Source of the DNA: Crocinitomicaceae bacterium | GTDB lineage: Bacteria > Bacteroidota > Bacteroidia > Flavobacteriales_D > Crocinitomicaceae | Direction: 5' to 3' | DNA length: 64,000 bases | Assembly (NCBI GenBank): GCA_024643365.1 | Contig: JAHENC010000019.1 | Location: 62,001 to 126,000 of the forward strand | Shown: positions 6,945-31,875 of the stretch, in pieces | Numbering within the stretch: the first letter of the stretch is position 1 | How the letters are laid out: each line of letters begins with the position of its first letter | Program-made: the position numbers and the translations under genes | Notes under the pieces: generated by a model | What the model was told of the DNA's origin: nothing | Seen by the model: the letters and a program-made list of their open reading frames with translations, nothing else | Databases searched by the model: none

Positions 6945-7150
6945 TTTAATATTTTTAGTCTCCTACTCATTTGGCTTTTCGGTTTCGCCTCGTTTTTAAG
7001 AATGGTATCTGAACTCCATTTTTCATCTTTTCCTTTTGTTCGTCAACATCTTGGATTTAAAAAGCCCACACTAAGTATAAATGGTTAAAAAAGTATCATT
7101 TTACCTTTGAGTATGTTTTCAAATTTATTTGAATAATTAATGAAAAAAGA

Positions 7151-21811: not shown

Positions 21812-21960
21812 ATCATTTCGTTTTAAATTGAAAACAAACCTCCCCATTTCCTCCGACAACCCAAGTCAAAACATAAGCTAAACTAAAATTCCCCTGACAA
21901 CTCAGGTCAATAAGTTGTGTAATCTCAAGAAATTGAAGTTATTTGCTCAAAAATGACCCC

Positions 21961-22782
21961 ATGTCAAACCAACGAAAGATACTTCGCGTATTGCAATTCA
22001 TTTCGTACTTGGAGCAGAAACCACCCAAAGCGGTGCAGCACCTGGCGGAAATGTTAGAAACCACGGAACGAACGGTTTACCGCTATTTGGACCTCATACG
22101 GGAATGTGGCTTCGACTTACAGAAGGACAAATTCAATCGCTTTTTTATTGAAGGCGAGCAGGGGACAGGGGTACGCTTTACCTCCGAGGAAGCCGCTTTT
22201 TTGAAGCAGTTGATCCTAACCACAGGAAAACAGAATAAACTAAAGGATTCCTTGATTAGTAAGATTTACTTGGCTTCGGATATCCAAATTTCGGCTGCTC
22301 ATTTGGTGAATGCCAAAAACGGACTCATCGTGGAACGACTCGCGCAAGCCATGGCGAACAAAGAACAGGTGATACTCAAGCGCTACCATTCCATCAACAC
22401 CGAAAGTATTTCAGACCGCGTGGTGGAACCCTTTGGCTTCACGGATAATTACCACACCGTTATGGCGTTTGAACCTTCCTCGCAGAAAAATAAAACCTAC
22501 CACCTCGACCGCATCACCTCCGTGGAATTCAACAACCTTCCCTTTGCGCACGAAGAAAAACACGAACAACAAATTCCCGATGCCTTTGGTTTCAGTTTCT
22601 CCGGTGAAAAACACCAGGTAGCGATAGACCTCACTTTAAAGAATTACCTACTGCTCAAAAATGAATATCCGATGGTGATTCCGTTTGTGAAATTCAACGC
22701 AGCAAAAGATGTGTATGAGTTGAGAATGGAGGTGAATAGTATGGAGCCGGTGAGGAGGTTTGAAAAAGGGATAATTAATTGA
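21961..22782 (+). CDS. WYL-domain regulator, short at the C-terminus
   Basis: 273 residues from the ATG at 21961 (a TTG at 21943 is the only earlier option). The N-terminal HTH is clear: ILRVLQFISYLEQ, AVQHLAEMLETTERTVYRYLDLIRECGF. The WYL core lies at about 135-195 (QVILKRYHSINTESISDRVV, TYHLDRITSVEF), followed by part of the WCX region. It ends at RRFEKGIIN, where related proteins usually continue for some 20-30 residues (RFVLGL...), so it may be truncated. The stop is 46 bp before the Nudix-helicase pair on the same strand; it may regulate that island. Confidence 0.82.
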   Translation: MSNQRKILRVLQFISYLEQKPPKAVQHLAEMLETTERTVYRYLDLIRECGFDLQKDKFNRFFIEGEQGTGVRFTSEEAAFLKQLILTTGKQNKLKDSLISKIYLASDIQISAAHLVNAKNGLIVERLAQAMANKEQVILKRYHSINTESISDRVVEPFGFTDNYHTVMAFEPSSQKNKTYHLDRITSVEFNNLPFAHEEKHEQQIPDAFGFSFSGEKHQVAIDLTLKNYLLLKNEYPMVIPFVKFNAAKDVYELRMEVNSMEPVRRFEKGIIN

Positions 22783-22828
22783 AATAAAAACACTATTATT
22801 TTCTCAATTAATATTTATCTTCACTCCG

Positions 22829-23224
22829 ATGAAAAAAGTAAACGTAGTTGCAGCAGTTATTGAGGATAATGGAGAATTTCTTTGTGTTCAAAGAGGACCC
22901 AATAAATATGAATACATCTCCGAGAAATTTGAATTTCCTGGAGGTAAAATTGAAGAGGGAGAAACACTTGAAATGACCATCATTCGTGAAATACAAGAAG
23001 AGCTTAATATGAACATTGTTCCAATTGAACAACTACCGACTGTTGAACATACTTATACAGATTTTCACCTCACGATGCATGTATTTCGCTGTTCGTGCGA
23101 ATCGAGAATTTTAGAACTAACAGAACACATTTCATTTTCTTGGTTGAGAAAAGAAGAATTGCGATCATTGGATTGGGCTGCTGCGGATATTCCGATAGTT
23201 GAAAATATTTTAGGGAATGGATAA
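22829..23224 (+). CDS. Nudix (MutT/NudG-like) nucleotide pyrophosphohydrolase
   Basis: 131 residues. The Nudix box is visible: FPGGKIEEGETLEMT then REIQEEL; the usual small Gly at the end of the box is Asn (NMNI). The N-terminus VNVVAAVIEDNGEFLCVQR is typical of MutT/NudG enzymes that hydrolyse (oxidised or modified) dNTPs or CTP to the monophosphate. The stop overlaps the downstream helicase start by 8 bp, so the two are translationally coupled. The AT-rich codon use matches the helicase and differs from the WYL gene before it. Confidence 0.88.
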   Translation: MKKVNVVAAVIEDNGEFLCVQRGPNKYEYISEKFEFPGGKIEEGETLEMTIIREIQEELNMNIVPIEQLPTVEHTYTDFHLTMHVFRCSCESRILELTEHISFSWLRKEELRSLDWAAADIPIVENILGNG

Positions 23225-26200
23225 CTTAATTAAAGTATTTACTAGCAGTTTAGAGACTGGTTTTATAAACAAATCAATTTTATCCAATTTTGAATTTCAA
23301 CCTGAATTACTTGTAAATCAAACAAAACCCAACAAAAAGATATTAACTAATATTCTAAATGAATTAGAATATTGTAATGAGTTTTATATTTCAGTAGCTT
23401 TTGTAACAACTAGTGGTGTGGCTTCCATCATAAATAAGCTGCAGGAACTTCAAAAAAGGAAAATCAAAGGAAAGGTATTAGTTTCTCAATATTTGAATTT
23501 TACTGAGCCTGAGGCATTGAAAAGATTGTTGCAATTTGATAATATTGATCTTAGAATAACAACAAAAGGCAATTCACATGCGAAAGGATACATATTTAAA
23601 AAGGACAATTTATACAATTTGATCATTGGGAGTAGTAATCTTACCGCTCAAGCTCTGTCAATTAATAAGGAATGGAACTTAAAAGTTTCAGCAATGGAAG
23701 AAAGTAGCCTGGTTGGAAAAGTTTTGGATGAATTTAATAATGATTTCAAAAATGCAACAAAGGTCACTCCGAATTACATTTCTTATTATGAACAGATATA
23801 TAGAAATCAATTTCTACTAAATACCGATAAGAAATTAGAGGATGATTACAGAAATGAAATTGTCACTCCAAATTCTATGCAATTAGAGGCATTAGGAAAT
23901 TTATCAAAATTGAGAGATGATCACAAAAATAAAGCACTGATAATTTCAGCAACCGGCACAGGTAAGACCTTTTTATCTGCATTTGATGCTAAGGCATTTG
24001 GATCTAAAAAGTTATTATTTGTTGTACACCGATTAACGATAGCTAAGGAATCTTTAAAGTCTTTTCAAAGAGTTTTTGGTTCAGAAAGAACTATGGGGCT
24101 ATATTCGGGTGATAAAAGAGAAGTGGATAGTGATTTTTTGTTTTCTACAATTCAAACAATTTCAAAGGAGGAACACTTAGGTAATTTCAAAAAGGATCAT
24201 TTTGATTACATAATAATTGATGAAACGCATAGATCTGGAGCTGATTCGTATTTAAGGTTATTGAAATATTTTGAACCAAAATTTCTTTTGGGAATGACTG
24301 CTACCCCTGAGAGAACTGATGGAAATGATATTTTTAAATTATTCGATCATAACATAGCCTATGAAATTAGATTACATAGAGCAATGGAGGAGCAATTACT
24401 CTGTGATTTTCATTATTTCGGTGTAACTGATTTATATATTGATAATAAAGCGCAAGATGACAAGTCATATTTCAATAGATTAATTTCAAATGAGCGTGTT
24501 GAAAGAATAATCGAAAAGTCTAGATTTTATGGTTGTGATAATGGAATAACTCGAGGCTTGGTTTTTTGTTCACGTACTTCAGAAGCACAGGAACTAGCGA
24601 GATTATTTAATGATAGAGGCTTGAATTCCATTGCTTTAACAGGTGATAACTCGGAAGAGGAACGAATAAAAGCAATAGATCTTCTAGAGTCTGATATAAT
24701 TAGTAAAAAACTTGATTATATTTTCACTGTAGACATATTTAATGAGGGAATTGATATCCCAAGAGTAAATCAGATAATAATGCTTAGGCCAACTGATTCA
24801 TCAATTGTTTTTATTCAGCAATTGGGTAGAGGATTGCGTAAATTGGCTAGCAAGAATTATTTAACGATTATTGATTTCATTGGTAATTACAATAATAATT
24901 ATTTAATCCCCATAGCACTGTATGGAGACACATCTTATAACAAGGATTCATTAAGAAAATTAATAACTGACGGAAGTAGGTCTATTCCTGGTGCATCGAC
25001 AATAAATTTTGATGAAATTTCGAAAAACATGATTTTTCAATCAATTGATTCATCCAATTTGCAATTATTTGCAGATTTGAAAAAGGATTATAAACTTCTT
25101 AAGTATAAGTTAGGGCGCTTGCCGATGATGATGGATTTTGTGGAACATGGATCAAGAGATCCATTTCAATTCGTAAGTTATTCTAATTCCTATTTTAATT
25201 TTGTTTCTAAGGTAGAAAAAGAACTCGTTTTCGAATTGTCAAAAAATCAGATTAGTCTTCTTGAGTTATTTTCCAAGGAGATCAATAATTCCAAGAGAAT
25301 CGATGAGAATATCATTTTAAAATTACTTTTGTCTAAAAAATCAATTGATTTGAAATTTCTTAATGAAGAAATGAAATCGAAATATGGTTATGAAATTTCT
25401 GAAGACACTTTTTTATCATGTTTAGATAATTTGAATTTTAAATTTATTAGAAAGGAACTAGAGATTATTGTTAACAAAGAAACCGATGTAGAATTTTCAA
25501 AGTCGTTTGAAAAAGAACTCGAGAACGAAGTATTTAATATTTTCCTCAATGACAGTTTAAATTATTCAATTAATTCATTTAATAAACGTTATGTCAAAAA
25601 TCTATATAAAGCTGGATTTATTTTATACGAGAAATATTCCAGAAAGGATGTTTGTCGAATATTAAATTGGAAGTTAAATGAGGAAGCGACAGTTTATGGG
25701 TATAAATTAAATAACAATAGTTGTCCAATTTTTGTTAATTATCATAAGGAGGAAAAAATTGCCTCGTCTACAAAGTTTCCTGAAAAATTTCTCAATTCAT
25801 CTCAATTCTTGTGGTATTCTAAACCTAATCGTAAGTTGTCAAATTCAACTTTACAGTCTATTAAAAATAATAAGGAAATTAGATTGCCTTTTTTCATGAA
25901 AAAGCATAATGGAGAAGGGTCGGATTTTTATTTTATGGGCGATGTCTCACCACTTGAAAATTCATTTGAAGAGACAACCATAAAGAATGATCAAAATATA
26001 GATGTTCCTGTTGTTAAGGTAATTCTTGAACTTTCGTCGCCAGTTGAAAATTCAATTTATAATTACTTGACTAATATTAACTCAGATGAGTTTTCGCTTG
26101 AGCAGATTTACACGAACAATATTGTAAATTTTGAAGAAAAAGTAAATAATCCGATTCCACTTTACGATTTTTATGCAGCTGCAGGAACATTTAGTGAAAT

Positions 26201-26588
26201 GCAGTCTAATAATGAATATACAATTATCGAAGGTCCTAAGAATTTAAATTTCAAAAAAGATCTATTTGCGTGCAAGGTTATTGGTGATTCTATGAATAGG
26301 GTGATTCCGAACGGTTCAATATGTCTTTTTGAGAAATACGAAGGAGGAAGTAGAAATGGAAAGATAGTATTAGTTGAGAATTTGGATTTTAATGATCAGG
26401 ATTATAATTCCGCTTTTACAGTTAAAACATACTCTAGCGAAAAACATATTACCGAAAATGATTGGTTGCATACTTCAATTGTATTGCGTCCAAATTCATA
26501 TGATCCGTCATTTCAAAATATTGTAATTGATGAATCAAATGCAAAAGAAATGAGAATAGTAGGAGTTTTTGTTCAAATTTTAGAATGA
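23217..26588 (+). CDS. PLD nuclease - SF2 helicase - DUF3427 - LexA/S24-like fusion
   Basis: 1123 residues. In order: a phospholipase-D-type nuclease domain (about 30-180; H121-A-K123 and GSSN 138-141); an SF2 DEAD/DEAH helicase with Walker A ATGTGKT (245-251), DETH (335-338), TAT (361-363) and QQLGRGLR near 540; a long DUF3427-like region; and a C-terminal S24/LexA-like domain (about 985-1123) with A989-G990, Ser1025 in GDSM and Lys1070 in FTVKTY. The spacing fits LexA-type self-cleavage. It overlaps the Nudix gene by 8 bp and converges with 26591 at 2 bp. It is strongly AT-rich, suggesting transfer. A defence or DNA-damage role is likely, but inference. Confidence 0.9.
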   Translation: MDNLIKVFTSSLETGFINKSILSNFEFQPELLVNQTKPNKKILTNILNELEYCNEFYISVAFVTTSGVASIINKLQELQKRKIKGKVLVSQYLNFTEPEALKRLLQFDNIDLRITTKGNSHAKGYIFKKDNLYNLIIGSSNLTAQALSINKEWNLKVSAMEESSLVGKVLDEFNNDFKNATKVTPNYISYYEQIYRNQFLLNTDKKLEDDYRNEIVTPNSMQLEALGNLSKLRDDHKNKALIISATGTGKTFLSAFDAKAFGSKKLLFVVHRLTIAKESLKSFQRVFGSERTMGLYSGDKREVDSDFLFSTIQTISKEEHLGNFKKDHFDYIIIDETHRSGADSYLRLLKYFEPKFLLGMTATPERTDGNDIFKLFDHNIAYEIRLHRAMEEQLLCDFHYFGVTDLYIDNKAQDDKSYFNRLISNERVERIIEKSRFYGCDNGITRGLVFCSRTSEAQELARLFNDRGLNSIALTGDNSEEERIKAIDLLESDIISKKLDYIFTVDIFNEGIDIPRVNQIIMLRPTDSSIVFIQQLGRGLRKLASKNYLTIIDFIGNYNNNYLIPIALYGDTSYNKDSLRKLITDGSRSIPGASTINFDEISKNMIFQSIDSSNLQLFADLKKDYKLLKYKLGRLPMMMDFVEHGSRDPFQFVSYSNSYFNFVSKVEKELVFELSKNQISLLELFSKEINNSKRIDENIILKLLLSKKSIDLKFLNEEMKSKYGYEISEDTFLSCLDNLNFKFIRKELEIIVNKETDVEFSKSFEKELENEVFNIFLNDSLNYSINSFNKRYVKNLYKAGFILYEKYSRKDVCRILNWKLNEEATVYGYKLNNNSCPIFVNYHKEEKIASSTKFPEKFLNSSQFLWYSKPNRKLSNSTLQSIKNNKEIRLPFFMKKHNGEGSDFYFMGDVSPLENSFEETTIKNDQNIDVPVVKVILELSSPVENSIYNYLTNINSDEFSLEQIYTNNIVNFEEKVNNPIPLYDFYAAAGTFSEMQSNNEYTIIEGPKNLNFKKDLFACKVIGDSMNRVIPNGSICLFEKYEGGSRNGKIVLVENLDFNDQDYNSAFTVKTYSSEKHITENDWLHTSIVLRPNSYDPSFQNIVIDESNAKEMRIVGVFVQILE

Positions 26589-26590
26589 AC

Positions 26591-28456
26591 TTAATCTCCT
26601 AGGCTCATTTTTCCCCTCAACCACTCCTGCGTCTCCGCATCACTGCTCCAAATAAAACACCCTTTCATTCCGCGGGTCATGAGCGTTCGATAGGTGTTTT
26701 TGATAATGGCATTTGCCATTTCTTGACCTTTTTGTGGGTTTGCTTTTAACAGGGATTTGATTCCATGGATGCTTTTATCGCTTGAAGCTCGTTTTTCGGG
26801 TTGACACAACCATTGACCGTTTCGAATCACAAGGTCTGGTCCCATGAACACGCCAATGTAATCGACTTCTAGACCTTGACAGGTGTGAATGCATCCGATT
26901 TGTTCAACTGATGCCGGACTCACTATCCAAAGCATTCCATCTTGGGTTAAATTCCATTGTTTTCCAAAATTGAATTCGGGAACGACAATGTCCATGGCTC
27001 TTGGATCCTTCTTGGAATTCCAGGGCCAACAATATCCCGCAACCATGCGCGCACGATTTCGTTCTTTGTTTCTTTGAAGAATTTCTTCGTACAATTCCAC
27101 AGGACTTGAACACACACGAAACTCGTAATTGAGTTCTTTTATATCTGTGTTTGCTGTTTCTCGGATGCCTAAAAGTTGATCTAGGAAAGCCATGTATCCA
27201 TCACTACCGTTACACCTGAACTGACTAGAAAGTTTGAGGTGATGAATTTCCGCACCGGAATAACGCGCCCATTTTTCAATTTCCGCACTTGATCCAATAT
27301 CCTTCATGGTGACACGTTGATCTTCATCCAAAAAGAAAACGGAACATCTTGCCGCTTCAATGATTTCCATGACTTGATTTTGACCAAGATTTGAAAACAT
27401 ACCGCTTTTTTCATTTAAGCGATGTGCCTCGTCTACAATTAAAGCATCAAATTGATTTTTTTCTGCTTGGATGTAAGATCCGGAGCCTTTGAATAAATTA
27501 TTGACCCATGATTTTGTGCGGATCCCCGTTAATTTACTCGCGTAAACATCACGAGGGGCACTGTTCTTACTGACATATTGCACCAATTTCTGCTGACTGG
27601 TGAAATTAGCGGTCAATTGAATCGCAACTACGGATTTTCCAGTTCCAGGTCCACCTTCAACAATGACCACTTGTTTGGAACTCGGACTTGCTTTCGAAAT
27701 GAGCTGAGCAATCCGTTCGTAAACGACTTTTTGATCATCAATCATCACAAATTCTTCGTTTCCATCAATCATTCTTGCGATGGCATCTGCAATTCCTTTC
27801 GATGGACGAATTTTCCCATGTTCTATCTGATACATGACATTTCGATAGTCACCAAACTTTACATGTTGCTTAATGAATTCCGAAAGTTTTAAGACATCAT
27901 TTTTTGCAAATAACGGTGCTTTATCGAGGTAATTCTGATAAAAGCTTCCCGTCATCGGACTAGGATCCTCGCAATTGTGTAAAAATGCACAAGCTTGCAG
28001 TTGAATGTTTTCATCCTCCACTGCCGAATTGAATCCTTCCAACAATGCAGCATAGCTCCATGCTTGATAACTTGGATGACTTACATCACGTACTGCACCT
28101 CCGACATAGGTTTTAACCACGCCATCAAGGTCTGTTGAAATGGCTGTTTCCCATTGTTTCAATTCAATGATGACGGCACAATCACGTCTATCTTCGGTTT
28201 GACCGGTGATGATAAAGTCGATGCGTTTGCTCGTATTTGGAACTTGACATTCAATACTGATTTTCGCGTCACCTGGTATGGCCGAATCATCCAGTACATT
28301 ACGCATGTACATCATGGAGTTTTTCCAAGAATTTACTTCACTTTTCGAGGTGTCCCTTCCTAAGTTTTTAATGAAATTATCGTGGATGATGTATTCAATT
28401 TTACTCTCGCGTACTTGCGACATGAAGGTGTCCTTGTTCTCTTGGTAGACAATCAT
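26591..28456 (-). CDS. PD-(D/E)XK nuclease - DUF2075 helicase protein
   Basis: 621 residues. The N-terminal ~130 residues contain a restriction-type nuclease signature: D80 in KRIDFI and E98-L-K100 in IIELKQW. A DUF2075-type SF1-like helicase domain follows with Walker A GGPGTGKS (268-275), DEAH (342-345), DEDQ (377-380), SSQFRCNG, CQGLEVDYIGV and NTYRTLMTRG. It is the second gene of a unit with the MazG-like gene, sharing an ATGA stop/start. It is cytoplasmic, with no signal. Related proteins occur in mobile and defence islands. Action on foreign DNA or RNA is inference. Confidence 0.88.
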   Translation of the reverse strand: MIVYQENKDTFMSQVRESKIEYIIHDNFIKNLGRDTSKSEVNSWKNSMMYMRNVLDDSAIPGDAKISIECQVPNTSKRIDFIITGQTEDRRDCAVIIELKQWETAISTDLDGVVKTYVGGAVRDVSHPSYQAWSYAALLEGFNSAVEDENIQLQACAFLHNCEDPSPMTGSFYQNYLDKAPLFAKNDVLKLSEFIKQHVKFGDYRNVMYQIEHGKIRPSKGIADAIARMIDGNEEFVMIDDQKVVYERIAQLISKASPSSKQVVIVEGGPGTGKSVVAIQLTANFTSQQKLVQYVSKNSAPRDVYASKLTGIRTKSWVNNLFKGSGSYIQAEKNQFDALIVDEAHRLNEKSGMFSNLGQNQVMEIIEAARCSVFFLDEDQRVTMKDIGSSAEIEKWARYSGAEIHHLKLSSQFRCNGSDGYMAFLDQLLGIRETANTDIKELNYEFRVCSSPVELYEEILQRNKERNRARMVAGYCWPWNSKKDPRAMDIVVPEFNFGKQWNLTQDGMLWIVSPASVEQIGCIHTCQGLEVDYIGVFMGPDLVIRNGQWLCQPEKRASSDKSIHGIKSLLKANPQKGQEMANAIIKNTYRTLMTRGMKGCFIWSSDAETQEWLRGKMSLGD

Positions 28457-28791
28457 AATTCAGTATACTTCTGAGCGTTTCCTTTGGATTTTTCTATGGG
28501 ATATTTTTCAGAATTACGCTGGATTTTATCCAATACAATCTCGCTGACATTTAACTGATGTTTCTCAGCAAGCAATAGGGCGTAAGCAAAAACATCCGCA
28601 AGTTCCTCTTTGATGCGTTGAATATCCACTTGTTCGGATTCCTTGACATCTTTCCATAGGAACAATTCATTTAATTCTGCTGCTTCTATGGATAAAGCGA
28701 TAGCTAAGTTTTTACTATCGTGAAATTGTTTCCAATCGCGTTCATCACGAAATTTAACTAAGGCTTCCATTAAGGTATTGATGTCGCTCAT
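28453..28791 (-). CDS. MazG-like (dCTPase-type) nucleotide pyrophosphohydrolase
   Basis: 112 residues. It has the all-alpha NTP pyrophosphatase pattern: WKQFHDSKNLAIALSIEAAELNELFLW (in parts; EAAELNE binds metal), EELADVFAYALLLAEKH and a C-terminal NSEKYPIEKSKG. The layout resembles dCTP pyrophosphatase / RS21-C6-like MazG members. It removes pyrophosphate from dNTPs, so it could clear modified nucleotides or lower dNTP supply. It is coupled by a 4 bp ATGA overlap to the DUF2075 helicase, mirroring the Nudix-helicase pair on the other strand. Confidence 0.88.
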   Translation of the reverse strand: MSDINTLMEALVKFRDERDWKQFHDSKNLAIALSIEAAELNELFLWKDVKESEQVDIQRIKEELADVFAYALLLAEKHQLNVSEIVLDKIQRNSEKYPIEKSKGNAQKYTEL

Positions 28792-29008
28792 ATTTTTTTG
28801 AAAGACTAAAGGTGCGAAAAAGATTTTAAATTGGGATTTATTCTGGTATTAGAATGCCTTATTGACCTAAGTTGTCATTGATTTCGTGTTACGAAAAATG
28901 ATTTACTTGAATAAAGGGTCATTCGTGAATCAATGTTGTCAGTTTCACAAATGTTGTCCCCTTTGTTGTCCCCCCTTGAAAATTTGAACCAAAAACTCCA
29001 TAAAAGCA

Positions 29009-29042: not shown

Positions 29043-29088
29043 CTAATCTCAACAGCCATATTGAGCTTGTCTTTAACGAAGCGTTTTG

Positions 29089-29162
29089 CGGTCTGGACGG
29101 GACTCGAACCCGCGACCCCCTGCGTGACAGGCAGGTATTCTAACCAACTGAACTACCAAACC
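29089..29162 (-). tRNA. tRNA-Asp (GTC)
   Basis: The reverse complement folds as a full cloverleaf of 74 nt without CCA. Acceptor GGTTTGG pairs with CCAGACC (one GU), the anticodon arm is CCTGC-CTGTCAC-GCAGG with anticodon GTC, and the T loop is GGTTCGAGTCC. The discriminator is G. It borders the accessory island at 22.8-28.8 kb. Confidence 0.95.
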
Positions 29163-31164: not shown

Positions 31165-31875
31165 TTGTTCGCTTTGCTCATACACATGCGCTCGTTTTAC
31201 TCACGCGTCAGGCACTGAGCACTGTTCACTGTTCACTCATTCGCTTTGCTCATGGGTATTTGGAAAAGAATGAAGCGTTCGTTTTACTCACGGGTTAGGC
31301 ACTGTTCACTGAGCACTCATTCGCTTTGCTCATGATTAACCTTTTAGAATAATGGCGTTCGTTTTACTCACGGGTTAGGCACTGTTCACTGAGCACTCAT
31401 TCGCTTTGCTCATGAATGTTTCGAAAAGAATGAAGCGCTCGTTTTACTCACGGGTTAGACACTGAGCACTGAGCACTCATTCGCTTTGCTCATGATAAAC
31501 TTCAAAGGATAATGAAGCGCTCGTTTTACTCACGCGTCAGGTACTGAGCACTGTTCACTGAGCACTCATTCGCTTTGCTCATGATTAACCTTTTAGAATA
31601 ATGGCGTTCGTTTTACTCACGGGTTAGGCACTGTTCACTGAGCACTCATTCGCTTTGCTCATGAATGTTTCGAAAAGAATGAAGCGCTCGTTTTACTCAC
31701 GGGTTAGACACTGAGCACTGAGCACTCATTCGCTTTGCTCATGATAAACTTCAAAGGATAATGAAGCGCTCGTTTTACTCACGCGTCAGGCACTGAGCAC
31801 TGTTCACTCATTCGCTTTGCTCATGAATGTTTCGAAAAGAATGAAGCCCTCGTTTTACTCACGCGCAAGCTCTCG
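31165..31875. repeat. Nested tandem repeat array, 80-87 bp units, 249-bp superperiod
   Basis: The motif CGTTTTACTCACG recurs nine times at 31193, 31280, 31360, 31440, 31522, 31609, 31689, 31771 and 31851 (spacings 87, 80, 80, 82, 87, 80, 82, 80). Between copies lies a related half-unit TTCGCTTTGCTCATG, and 7-bp elements CACTGAG/CACTGTT. Units of 80, 82 and 87 bp form a 249 bp superunit: the block from 31333 recurs from 31582 with about 200 identical bases. No gene is seen in the 31114-32019 stretch. Confidence 0.9.

Follow-up and report, generated by a model that had tools for sequence, protein, structure and literature searches.

The DNA studied here is a stretch of 64,000 nucleotides (the window) from Crocinitomicaceae bacterium (assembly GCA_024643365.1, contig JAHENC010000019.1, positions 62,001-126,000, forward strand). 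Its segment at 21.9-28.9 kb can be read, with a probability that we place at roughly 60%, as one co-regulated type IV restriction module formed by two operons: (i) WYL-Nudix-A, in which a helix-turn-helix (HTH) regulator of the WYL type and a Nudix hydrolase precede helicase A; and (ii) MazG-B, in which a MazG-like pyrophosphatase precedes helicase B. According to this reading, the Nudix and MazG enzymes would be sanitisers for modified deoxycytidine triphosphate (dCTP). The components themselves are of known kinds, while the pairing of an arm that acts on the nucleotide pool with an arm that acts on DNA would be new. The features concerned are the following:

21895-21914, plus strand: predicted operator copy 1, TGACAACTCAGGTCAATAAG, an imperfect palindrome (TGAC...GTCA) located 29-48 bp upstream of the start annotated for WYL
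21943-22782, plus strand: HTH-WYL transcriptional regulator (Pfam HTH_11 and WYL, both above cut-off)
22829-23224, plus strand: Nudix hydrolase, 131 aa (Pfam Nudix; PDC-S07; 3GWY match)
23217-26588, plus strand: helicase A, 1123 aa (Pfam PLDc_2, ResIII/Helicase_C, DUF3427 and Peptidase_S24, in that order)
26157-26570, plus strand: S24/LexA-type domain of A (Pfam stretch, residues 981-1118)
26591-28456, minus strand: helicase B, 621 aa (PF09848 SLFN-g3 helicase and an N-terminal predicted nuclease)
27827-28456, minus strand: predicted PD-(D/E)XK region of B, about residues 1-210 (motifs and predicted secondary structure)
28453-28791, minus strand: MazG-like NTP pyrophosphatase, all-alpha, DCTPP1/RS21-C6 type, 112 aa (PF12643)
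28858-28877, minus strand: predicted operator copy 2, TGACAACTTAGGTCAATAAG, 67-86 bp before the MazG start

The WYL gene opens the Nudix-A operon, separated by 46 bp from the Nudix gene on the same strand. The Nudix gene overlaps A by 8 bp, the MazG gene overlaps B by 4 bp, and the convergent genes A and B end 2 bp apart. The active-site residues that were checked are intact, i.e., the Nudix box, the HxK motif, Walker A, the E/E/E/D set of MazG, and the Ser and Lys of S24. An earlier note on this DNA had listed Nudix, A, B and MazG; the open reading frame (ORF) table and Pfam agree exactly with its four genes, coordinates and overlaps, but the WYL regulator (21943-22782) and the two operator copies had been overlooked.

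Helicase A and its Nudix partner

By sequence, helicase A is a full-length homologue of the type IV restriction enzyme SauUSI with an added S24 domain. The PADLOC model mREase_IV is matched along its whole length by A (model positions 1-953 of 953; E 8.5e-226), and a phmmer comparison with the SauUSI crystal structure 7CLG aligns residues 1-953 of both proteins at 733 bits. Over these residues, the two proteins share a phospholipase D (PLD) nuclease with an invariant HxK, a superfamily 2 (SF2) ATPase, and a coupler and target recognition domain (TRD) region. In particular, H121, K123, A245-T251 (ATGTGKT), D335, E336 and H338 are invariant in 16 of 16 aligned sequences. Unlike SauUSI, A continues for about 170 further C-terminal residues, which hold the Peptidase_S24 domain. 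Thus, the earlier statement that no named system could be matched was wrong for the A half: A belongs to the SauUSI family (PADLOC mREase_IV) and the Nudix to PDC-S07. SauUSI is reported to cut S5mCNGS, where 5mC stands for 5-methyl- or 5-hydroxymethyl-cytosine (PMC7913695); by analogy, A would cut DNA that contains these bases. The predicted model of full-length A has a predicted template-modelling score (pTM) of 0.40, too low for conclusions on how its domains are placed relative to one another. At L210:10538-13747, a gene of a second, SauUSI-like type (1069 aa) is divergent from a MazG-B pair, and no Nudix gene was found there.

The association between A and the Nudix gene was followed by scanning genomes with an alignment of A and using the best 80 of 569 confirmed loci, which span Bacteroidota, Bacillota, archaea, a Vibrio and others. 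In 67 of these 80 loci, no more than 350 bp separate A from a Nudix gene, which is upstream in 36, downstream on the same strand in 22 and downstream on the opposite strand in 9; in three more, the distance is up to 1.1 kb. None was found near A in the remaining ten, four of which (L121, L124, L128 and L141) are truncated on one side by a contig end close to A. In the extended loci of relatives, the Nudix gene is directly upstream of A in 19 of 19, a count that leaves aside the unextended contigs of 3.1-3.4 kb from G007 (L039) and G081 (L044); no Nudix was seen on L092, whose contig of 3.5 kb holds an incomplete A-like gene. Across the phylum, A is present in 9 of 392 Bacteroidota genomes (E<=1e-100), and in all eight of those other than the window's the Nudix gene is directly upstream. 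Conversely, a search with 3GWY, the best solved match of the window Nudix, returned 9 of 395 Bacteroidota genomes at E<=1e-30, which are exactly the nine carrying A (the two samples differ slightly through the completeness filter). In Staphylococcus records, a Nudix gene likewise immediately precedes near-identical copies of SauUSI itself. For instance, in a record labelled Staphylococcus phage (label unverified), an A copy 97.5% identical to SauUSI over its first 202 residues adjoins a Nudix 96.9% identical to 5X1X, a solved structure deposited as a MutT protein. This Nudix subfamily tracks SauUSI-type A genes.

The same adjacency is visible in Streptococcus, where MutT homologues lie beside SauUSI homologues (PMC7641849, Fig. 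9 legend), but this is a mention at legend level, and neither substrate, subfamily nor mechanism is inferred in the passages concerned. Within PubMed Central (Creative Commons licences), a single paper contains both SauUSI and Nudix; it brings up DUF3427 helicases and Nudix domains in different passages on conflict systems. The passages on SauUSI that were consulted deal with the enzyme alone. Among the titles and abstract starts listed there, with subscription papers mostly missing, no proposal of a joint SauUSI-Nudix function was found.

The window Nudix matches the PADLOC candidate family PDC-S07 (E 2e-45) and, among solved structures, is closest to 3GWY of Bacteroides fragilis (UniProt Q5LBB1; E 9e-36), which belongs to the same Nudix subfamily. 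The latter has been assayed on a library of 74 compounds, with much lower activity reported on canonical NTPs; the kcat/Km values reported (M-1 s-1) are 6.7e6 for 5-methyl-CTP, 4.8e6 for 5-methyl-dCTP, 4.4e6 for 5-hydroxymethyl-dCTP ("5-MeOH-dCTP") and 8.5e4 for 5-OH-dCTP (PMC5158307). 5-methyl-dCTP and 5-hydroxymethyl-dCTP are the precursors of the two bases that SauUSI attacks, a correspondence that is drawn here and not, as far as consulted, in the source papers. By analogy, the window Nudix is predicted to be a 5-methyl/5-hydroxymethyl-(d)CTP pyrophosphatase. The earlier note had suggested that both units control modified or limiting dNTPs: the first half of this suggestion is strengthened by the substrates reported for the closest Nudix of characterised activity, and the second is weakened by the much lower activity reported for that relative on canonical NTPs. 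Among named models, NudG (Orf135) of Escherichia coli is a near one, and it shares the conserved W..xAD end in the form APAD. Both 3GWY and NudG were assayed as isolated enzymes, and a link to restriction is absent from the passages on them that were available.

In a tree of 112 Nudix proteins (one frame of >260 aa, from L252, is omitted), 3GWY falls within a group of 37 rows that comprises 34 A-adjacent proteins, two that are not A-adjacent and 3GWY itself. The SH-aLRT value of this group is 91, below the 95 mark; the tree carries no bootstrap and many of its forks are unresolved. Most stand-alone Nudix proteins fall in other clades. Conversely, a PDC-S07 match does not imply A: the model matches 109 of 198 genomes, with many of the hits in MutY-length frames, and 13 of the 30 PDC-S07 loci examined have an A-like gene and 17 do not. 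No near-identical copy of 3GWY was found among the genome sets searched.

Regarding the S24 tail of A, a candidate scissile bond (Ala989-Gly990) is accompanied by Ser1025 and Lys1070 (all counted on the alignment), and the Ala-Gly site, Ser and Lys of LexA-type autoproteases are kept in 25 of 25 aligned S24 domains. Judging by these residues, the tail is an intact LexA-type autoprotease, and it probably functions as a damage-triggered switch. The domain is fused to A in seven of the 80 loci (L094-L098, L100 and L102) and in five of the eight other phylum genomes that carry A (L218-L222); in the relatives L083-L087, it is fused to a different form of B. Furthermore, on a Halomonas plasmid (L176:9911-10390) a stand-alone S24 protein comes right after B and is followed by a MazG-like frame, so that S24 appears there as a separate subunit. 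Since it is found fused to A, fused to B or beside B, S24 is an accessory common to A-type and B-type units. In several relatives, the S24 position of the window, 3' of A, is occupied by HNH-type nuclease genes (L070:7675-8646, L067:9700-10638, L068:5337-6323, L066:238-1413 and L074:12300-13448); the HNH-type calls come from Pfam in L066, L068 and L069, and from similarity in the remaining loci. Some of these genes carry a fused HIT domain, L063 has a non-HNH gene at this position, and in a Hymenobacter plasmid separate HNH and HIT genes precede Nudix-A.

Helicase B and its MazG partner

Helicase B carries the PF09848 (SLFN-g3) domain (E 1e-102), whose name is presumably the present one of the DUF2075 model; plasmid records label B homologues DUF2075. 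This part is a superfamily 1 (SF1) helicase, and its nearest folds are UvrD, RecD2 and SLFN11 (best Z 20.6, root-mean-square deviation 3.8 over 304 residues). The N-terminus is predicted to be a PD-(D/E)XK (RecB-like) nuclease, as it had been called before. Two observations favour this call: (i) E69, D80, E98-x-K100 and Q131-xxx-Y135 are invariant in 8 of 8 sequences (the window and seven homologues, 39-57% identity); and (ii) the order of strands and helices in the predicted model fits such a nuclease. On the other side, Pfam found no domain in the N-terminus, and Foldseek and VIA, which covered the helicase and barely this region, gave no fold match for the N-terminal domain alone. Another type of B in relatives has a GIY-YIG-like N-terminus (22.0-22.2 bits in the two scanned; Pfam cut-off 22.6).

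The MazG-like enzyme has DCTPP1 as its best solved match (E 2e-18), over MazG residues 12-112 including the C-terminal tail. Residues E36, E39, E63, D66, W20 and W46 are invariant in 15 of 15 aligned sequences; we take the two tryptophans to be those of the base pocket. The E/E/E/D metal ligands are common to the window MazG and DCTPP1/RS21-C6; unlike these eukaryotic proteins, the former is encoded by a gene that overlaps a nuclease-helicase gene. In the part of the literature consulted, Orf135, RS21-C6 and DCTPP1 are listed among hydrolases of high specificity for 5-methyl-dCTP (PMC10742078). The window MazG matches no model among the PADLOC models used.

Among relatives, MazG is directly before B in 18 of 22 loci; the other four (L066, L089, L092 and L093) are B fragments or contig-end copies cut on the MazG side. 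The 4-bp overlap recurs in 17 of those 18 loci with both genes, which argues that the gene layout is not due to chance. A search of the phylum sample for B (E<=1e-30) finds it in 16 of 392 genomes. With the window set aside, MazG immediately precedes B in 13 of the other 15, is separated from it by one gene in another and is absent from the last. Adjacency is still the rule in this set, and most pairs have either a gap of 2-160 bp or an overlap of 1-4 bp. A reverse search with MazG gave 20 matches in 19 of 296 genomes, 15 of which, window included, adjoin B (L288 with an intervening gene and L295 beside a short B frame). The five without B are among the six weakest matches, and one of them (L296) is near a contig end. 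Four viral contigs carry relatives of B, and MazG is beside B in three of them, once on the other strand. The earlier proposal that each helicase-nuclease is coupled to a pyrophosphatase holds: both partners are dedicated and conserved. The surroundings of MazG-B include, on a Priestia plasmid, an MrcB_N protein that also matches HNH weakly and, in L211, an HNH_2 protein, neighbours which fit a link to modified-DNA restriction.

The predicted operator and the linkage between A and B

The 20-bp sequence TGACAACTYAGGTCAATAAG stands at 21895-21914, just before WYL, and in inverted form at 28858-28877, just before MazG. The window contains no further copy (0.02 expected). When the 2.53-Mb genome was searched with a 19-mer and up to two mismatches, the same two copies, both with 0 mismatches, were the only ones; the reversed pattern, used as a control under the same threshold, gave one genome match. 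In relatives, 33 extended loci (L061-L093) were searched with up to four mismatches. The operator lies before both operons in L061, L069, L070 and L076, which hold WYL, A and B; at WYL in L074, which holds WYL-Nudix-A alone; and, as a weak copy with three mismatches, before WYL in L068, where WYL lies beyond A. No copy was detected in L071, where WYL is cut by the contig start, nor in the 26 loci without a WYL match, including L075, which is the B-MazG locus elsewhere in the genome of L074. Across 53 loci from the phylum (385 kb), the sole match is the window's own locus, L250.

In view of this co-occurrence with WYL, the pair is predicted to be formed by WYL operators, through which WYL would act as a repressor. 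Each copy precedes an operon, and for this reason an attachment site is the less favoured explanation of the two copies, which form the sole strong inverted pair at the borders; that explanation keeps some weight because the stretch shared with the relative G036 ends at operator copy 2. A WYL repressor with two boxes, BrxR, has been reported from an island with BREX and a type IV enzyme (PMC9122601). As with BrxR and CapW, to judge from the accounts available, the HTH-WYL gene of the window comes first in a putative defence operon, and a candidate operator precedes both this operon and another one of the island. Unlike in those cases, the operator has a different sequence, and the island combines a type IV enzyme with a nuclease-helicase, not BREX or CBASS. 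Beside WYL in L070:12993-14140 and L076:8635-9434 there is a Panacea/SocA-type HTH antitoxin gene with a small gene (Pfam scan of L070); L070 has an extra operator copy before these two genes and another beyond. Conservation and the operator together rule out a chance neighbourhood.

The comparison with G036 shows how the parts of the locus move. At the DNA level, G036 matches the window at 93% identity in WYL-Nudix (21866-23203) and at 96% in B-MazG (26607-28877). Parts of A reach no more than 66-67%, the 3' part of A is unalignable, and an HNH-type gene replaces the S24 tail (the HNH call is made via the near-identical counterpart in L069). The same pattern, less sharp, is seen in L069 (89/67-68/83%) and L076 (81/67/79%). 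Hence, A has been exchanged in G036 while the Nudix has been kept: the nuclease changes and the sanitiser stays, which is what a coupling of the two through a metabolite, and not through protein contact, would lead one to expect.

The earlier note had asked whether the four genes occur together elsewhere, and they do. All four are contiguous in five of the best 80 loci (L099, L105, L106, L150 and L169), in five different orders; L099 has the convergent order of the window, and L106 has A in two frames. In L118 and L147 an HNH gene is added, and L118 has a PRA-PH-type pyrophosphatase in place of MazG. When the 778 ORFs within 6 kb of A in the 80 loci were clustered, the commonest clusters, by number of loci, were Nudix (68), ABC-transporter (10), B (9) and MazG (8), followed by histidine kinases (7), SF2-helicase pieces (7), HTH (6) and HNH_4 (5); the identity of unnamed clusters comes from one example each. 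In the genus (86 genomes, G000-G085), A is present in 17 genomes and PD-type B in 13 (two of them as contig-end fragments). Both occur in 9 of the 86 versus 2.6 expected (Fisher p 2.5e-5, from hand-made counts and with no correction for relatedness), and 8 of these 9 have the two genes side by side. The A-B linkage is, in short, recurrent and facultative. The idea of a single defence module, put forward before with a "perhaps", gains from the shared operator and the recurrent contiguous quartets, and loses from the facultative character of the link. An obligate four-gene system is ruled out by the genomes in which A and B stand apart and by most of the 80 loci.

Several other observations concern the surroundings. 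The full kilobases within A have a guanine plus cytosine (GC) content of 27-32%, and the wider window mostly 37-45%, but 18-21 kb and 6-9 kb are also at 32-34%, so no argument is drawn from composition. Some 210 bp past operator copy 2 there is a tRNA-Asp gene (29088-29162). The interval from MazG to the conserved flank is filled in G015 (L069) by other genes, about 4.8 kb in all, which makes that side a variable site. At 31188-31865, directly before a tRNA-Leu gene, there is a tandem array of about eight copies of an 80-bp unit, partly present in the relative L061. Finally, 6956-7024 (minus strand) matches the Rfam DUF805 cis-regulatory RNA at 74.9 bits.

Proposed mechanism, alternatives and meaning

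In the proposed mechanism, A would translocate on, and shred, DNA with 5-methyl- or 5-hydroxymethyl-cytosine, as its likeness to SauUSI suggests, and B would be a second nuclease-bearing DNA translocase, probably directed against modified or otherwise foreign DNA. Nudix and MazG, by analogy with their nearest characterised relatives, would hydrolyse 5-modified dCTP to the monophosphate. In this way, modified cytosine from salvage, from the breakdown of foreign DNA or from phage synthesis would be kept out of the host genome and thus off A's target list; the same hydrolysis would also starve phages that build hydroxymethyl-cytosine DNA. WYL would hold both operons down, through the operator at each promoter, until infection, and the S24 tail of A would probably serve as a damage-triggered switch. 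From this, a broader and more tentative idea can be formulated, to which we give somewhat less than even odds: SauUSI-type restriction may be a two-level immunity in which a pyrophosphatase polices the pool and a nuclease polices the DNA, with MazG-B as a second instance and one regulator for both. If so, no earlier restriction system with a matching arm at the level of the precursors is known to us.

A number of observations weigh against the proposed module. With respect to linkage, B lies within the fetched stretch in only 10 of the 80 A loci (leaving out L164, where the match to B scores 36 bits), and G175, G370 and G062 carry A and B apart; these are draft genomes, with the two genes on different contigs in G175 and G062. 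With respect to the Nudix, the window enzyme is about 50% identical to 3GWY and is not the same enzyme; the Nudix proteins beside more distant A-like genes fall in other clades of the tree; and a 3GWY-like Nudix (46-51% identity) is also present on 13 viral contigs (L256-L268), where the flanks, fetched up to 6 kb, showed neither A, B, MazG nor S24. The subfamily is, therefore, not confined to SauUSI, and a strict tie between the Nudix and A is not upheld everywhere; the viral proteins possibly represent another phage use of a modified-dCTP hydrolase. With respect to MazG, the window protein seems to lack H38 of DCTPP1 (position by eye), so that its base preference can be predicted with less confidence than is possible for the Nudix. 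Lastly, we know of no such partner for McrBC and other type IV enzymes; sanitation is, then, not a general need of type IV enzymes.

Alternatively, the island may hold two separate two-gene systems, SauUSI-Nudix and MazG-nuclease-helicase, with no joint mechanism, their neighbourhood and common WYL operator being those of an ordinary island under one regulator. This is a serious possibility, to which we assign about one chance in three: A and B are apart in most genomes, each pair is far better conserved than the quartet, BrxR offers a precedent for two boxes in one island (PMC9122601), and G036 has extra operator copies near other genes, one of them before the Panacea-type antitoxin gene. Nevertheless, B (9 loci) and MazG (8) rank directly after Nudix and the ABC-transporter cluster among the neighbours of A, five contiguous quartets occur in five orders, the S24 domain is common to A-type and B-type proteins, and co-occurrence in the genus exceeds expectation (9 of 86 genomes versus 2.6, 8 of 9 adjacent, relatedness not corrected). 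These points favour the co-regulated module.

It is unlikely that the pyrophosphatases are themselves the weapon, destroying phage hydroxymethyl-dCTP or the whole dCTP pool upon infection and so preventing completion of the phage genome, with restriction as a second line. Depletion of dNTPs is an established antiphage strategy. However, loss of the modified precursor would hide phage DNA from A, and the partner is also present in staphylococci and lactobacilli, where, to our knowledge, hydroxymethyl-cytosine phages are not prominent. The data on 3GWY cut both ways: among the four substrates tabulated its kcat is highest on 5-hydroxymethyl-dCTP (45 +/- 11), but its activity on canonical NTPs is reported to be much lower (PMC5158307). 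A housekeeping origin, i.e., a MutT-type 8-oxo-dGTP cleaner and a generic MazG placed beside helicases by accident, can draw on the wide distribution of the Nudix and MazG families and on the PDC-S07 matches to MutY-length frames and stand-alone Bacteroidota Nudix genes, but it is highly improbable and, for 8-oxo-dGTP, rejected, given that specific Nudix and MazG subfamilies track A and B, that most stand-alone Nudix lie in other clades and that the nearest characterised member prefers 5-modified (d)CTP (PMC5158307).

If the co-regulated module is real, its meaning goes beyond this locus. Modification-dependent restriction has a built-in danger, namely that modified cytosine in host DNA becomes a target, and removal of the precursor would explain how cells tolerate such nucleases. 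It would also provide a role for a 5-methyl/5-hydroxymethyl-dCTP hydrolase so far characterised in isolation. The one-gene view of SauUSI would then be incomplete, and the Nudix gene should accompany SauUSI in tests. Likewise, modified deoxycytidine could be conditionally toxic to cells that have the nuclease and lack the sanitiser. The MazG-nuclease-helicase pair, with a MazG that lies outside the PADLOC models searched, is in turn a concrete candidate for a defence system.

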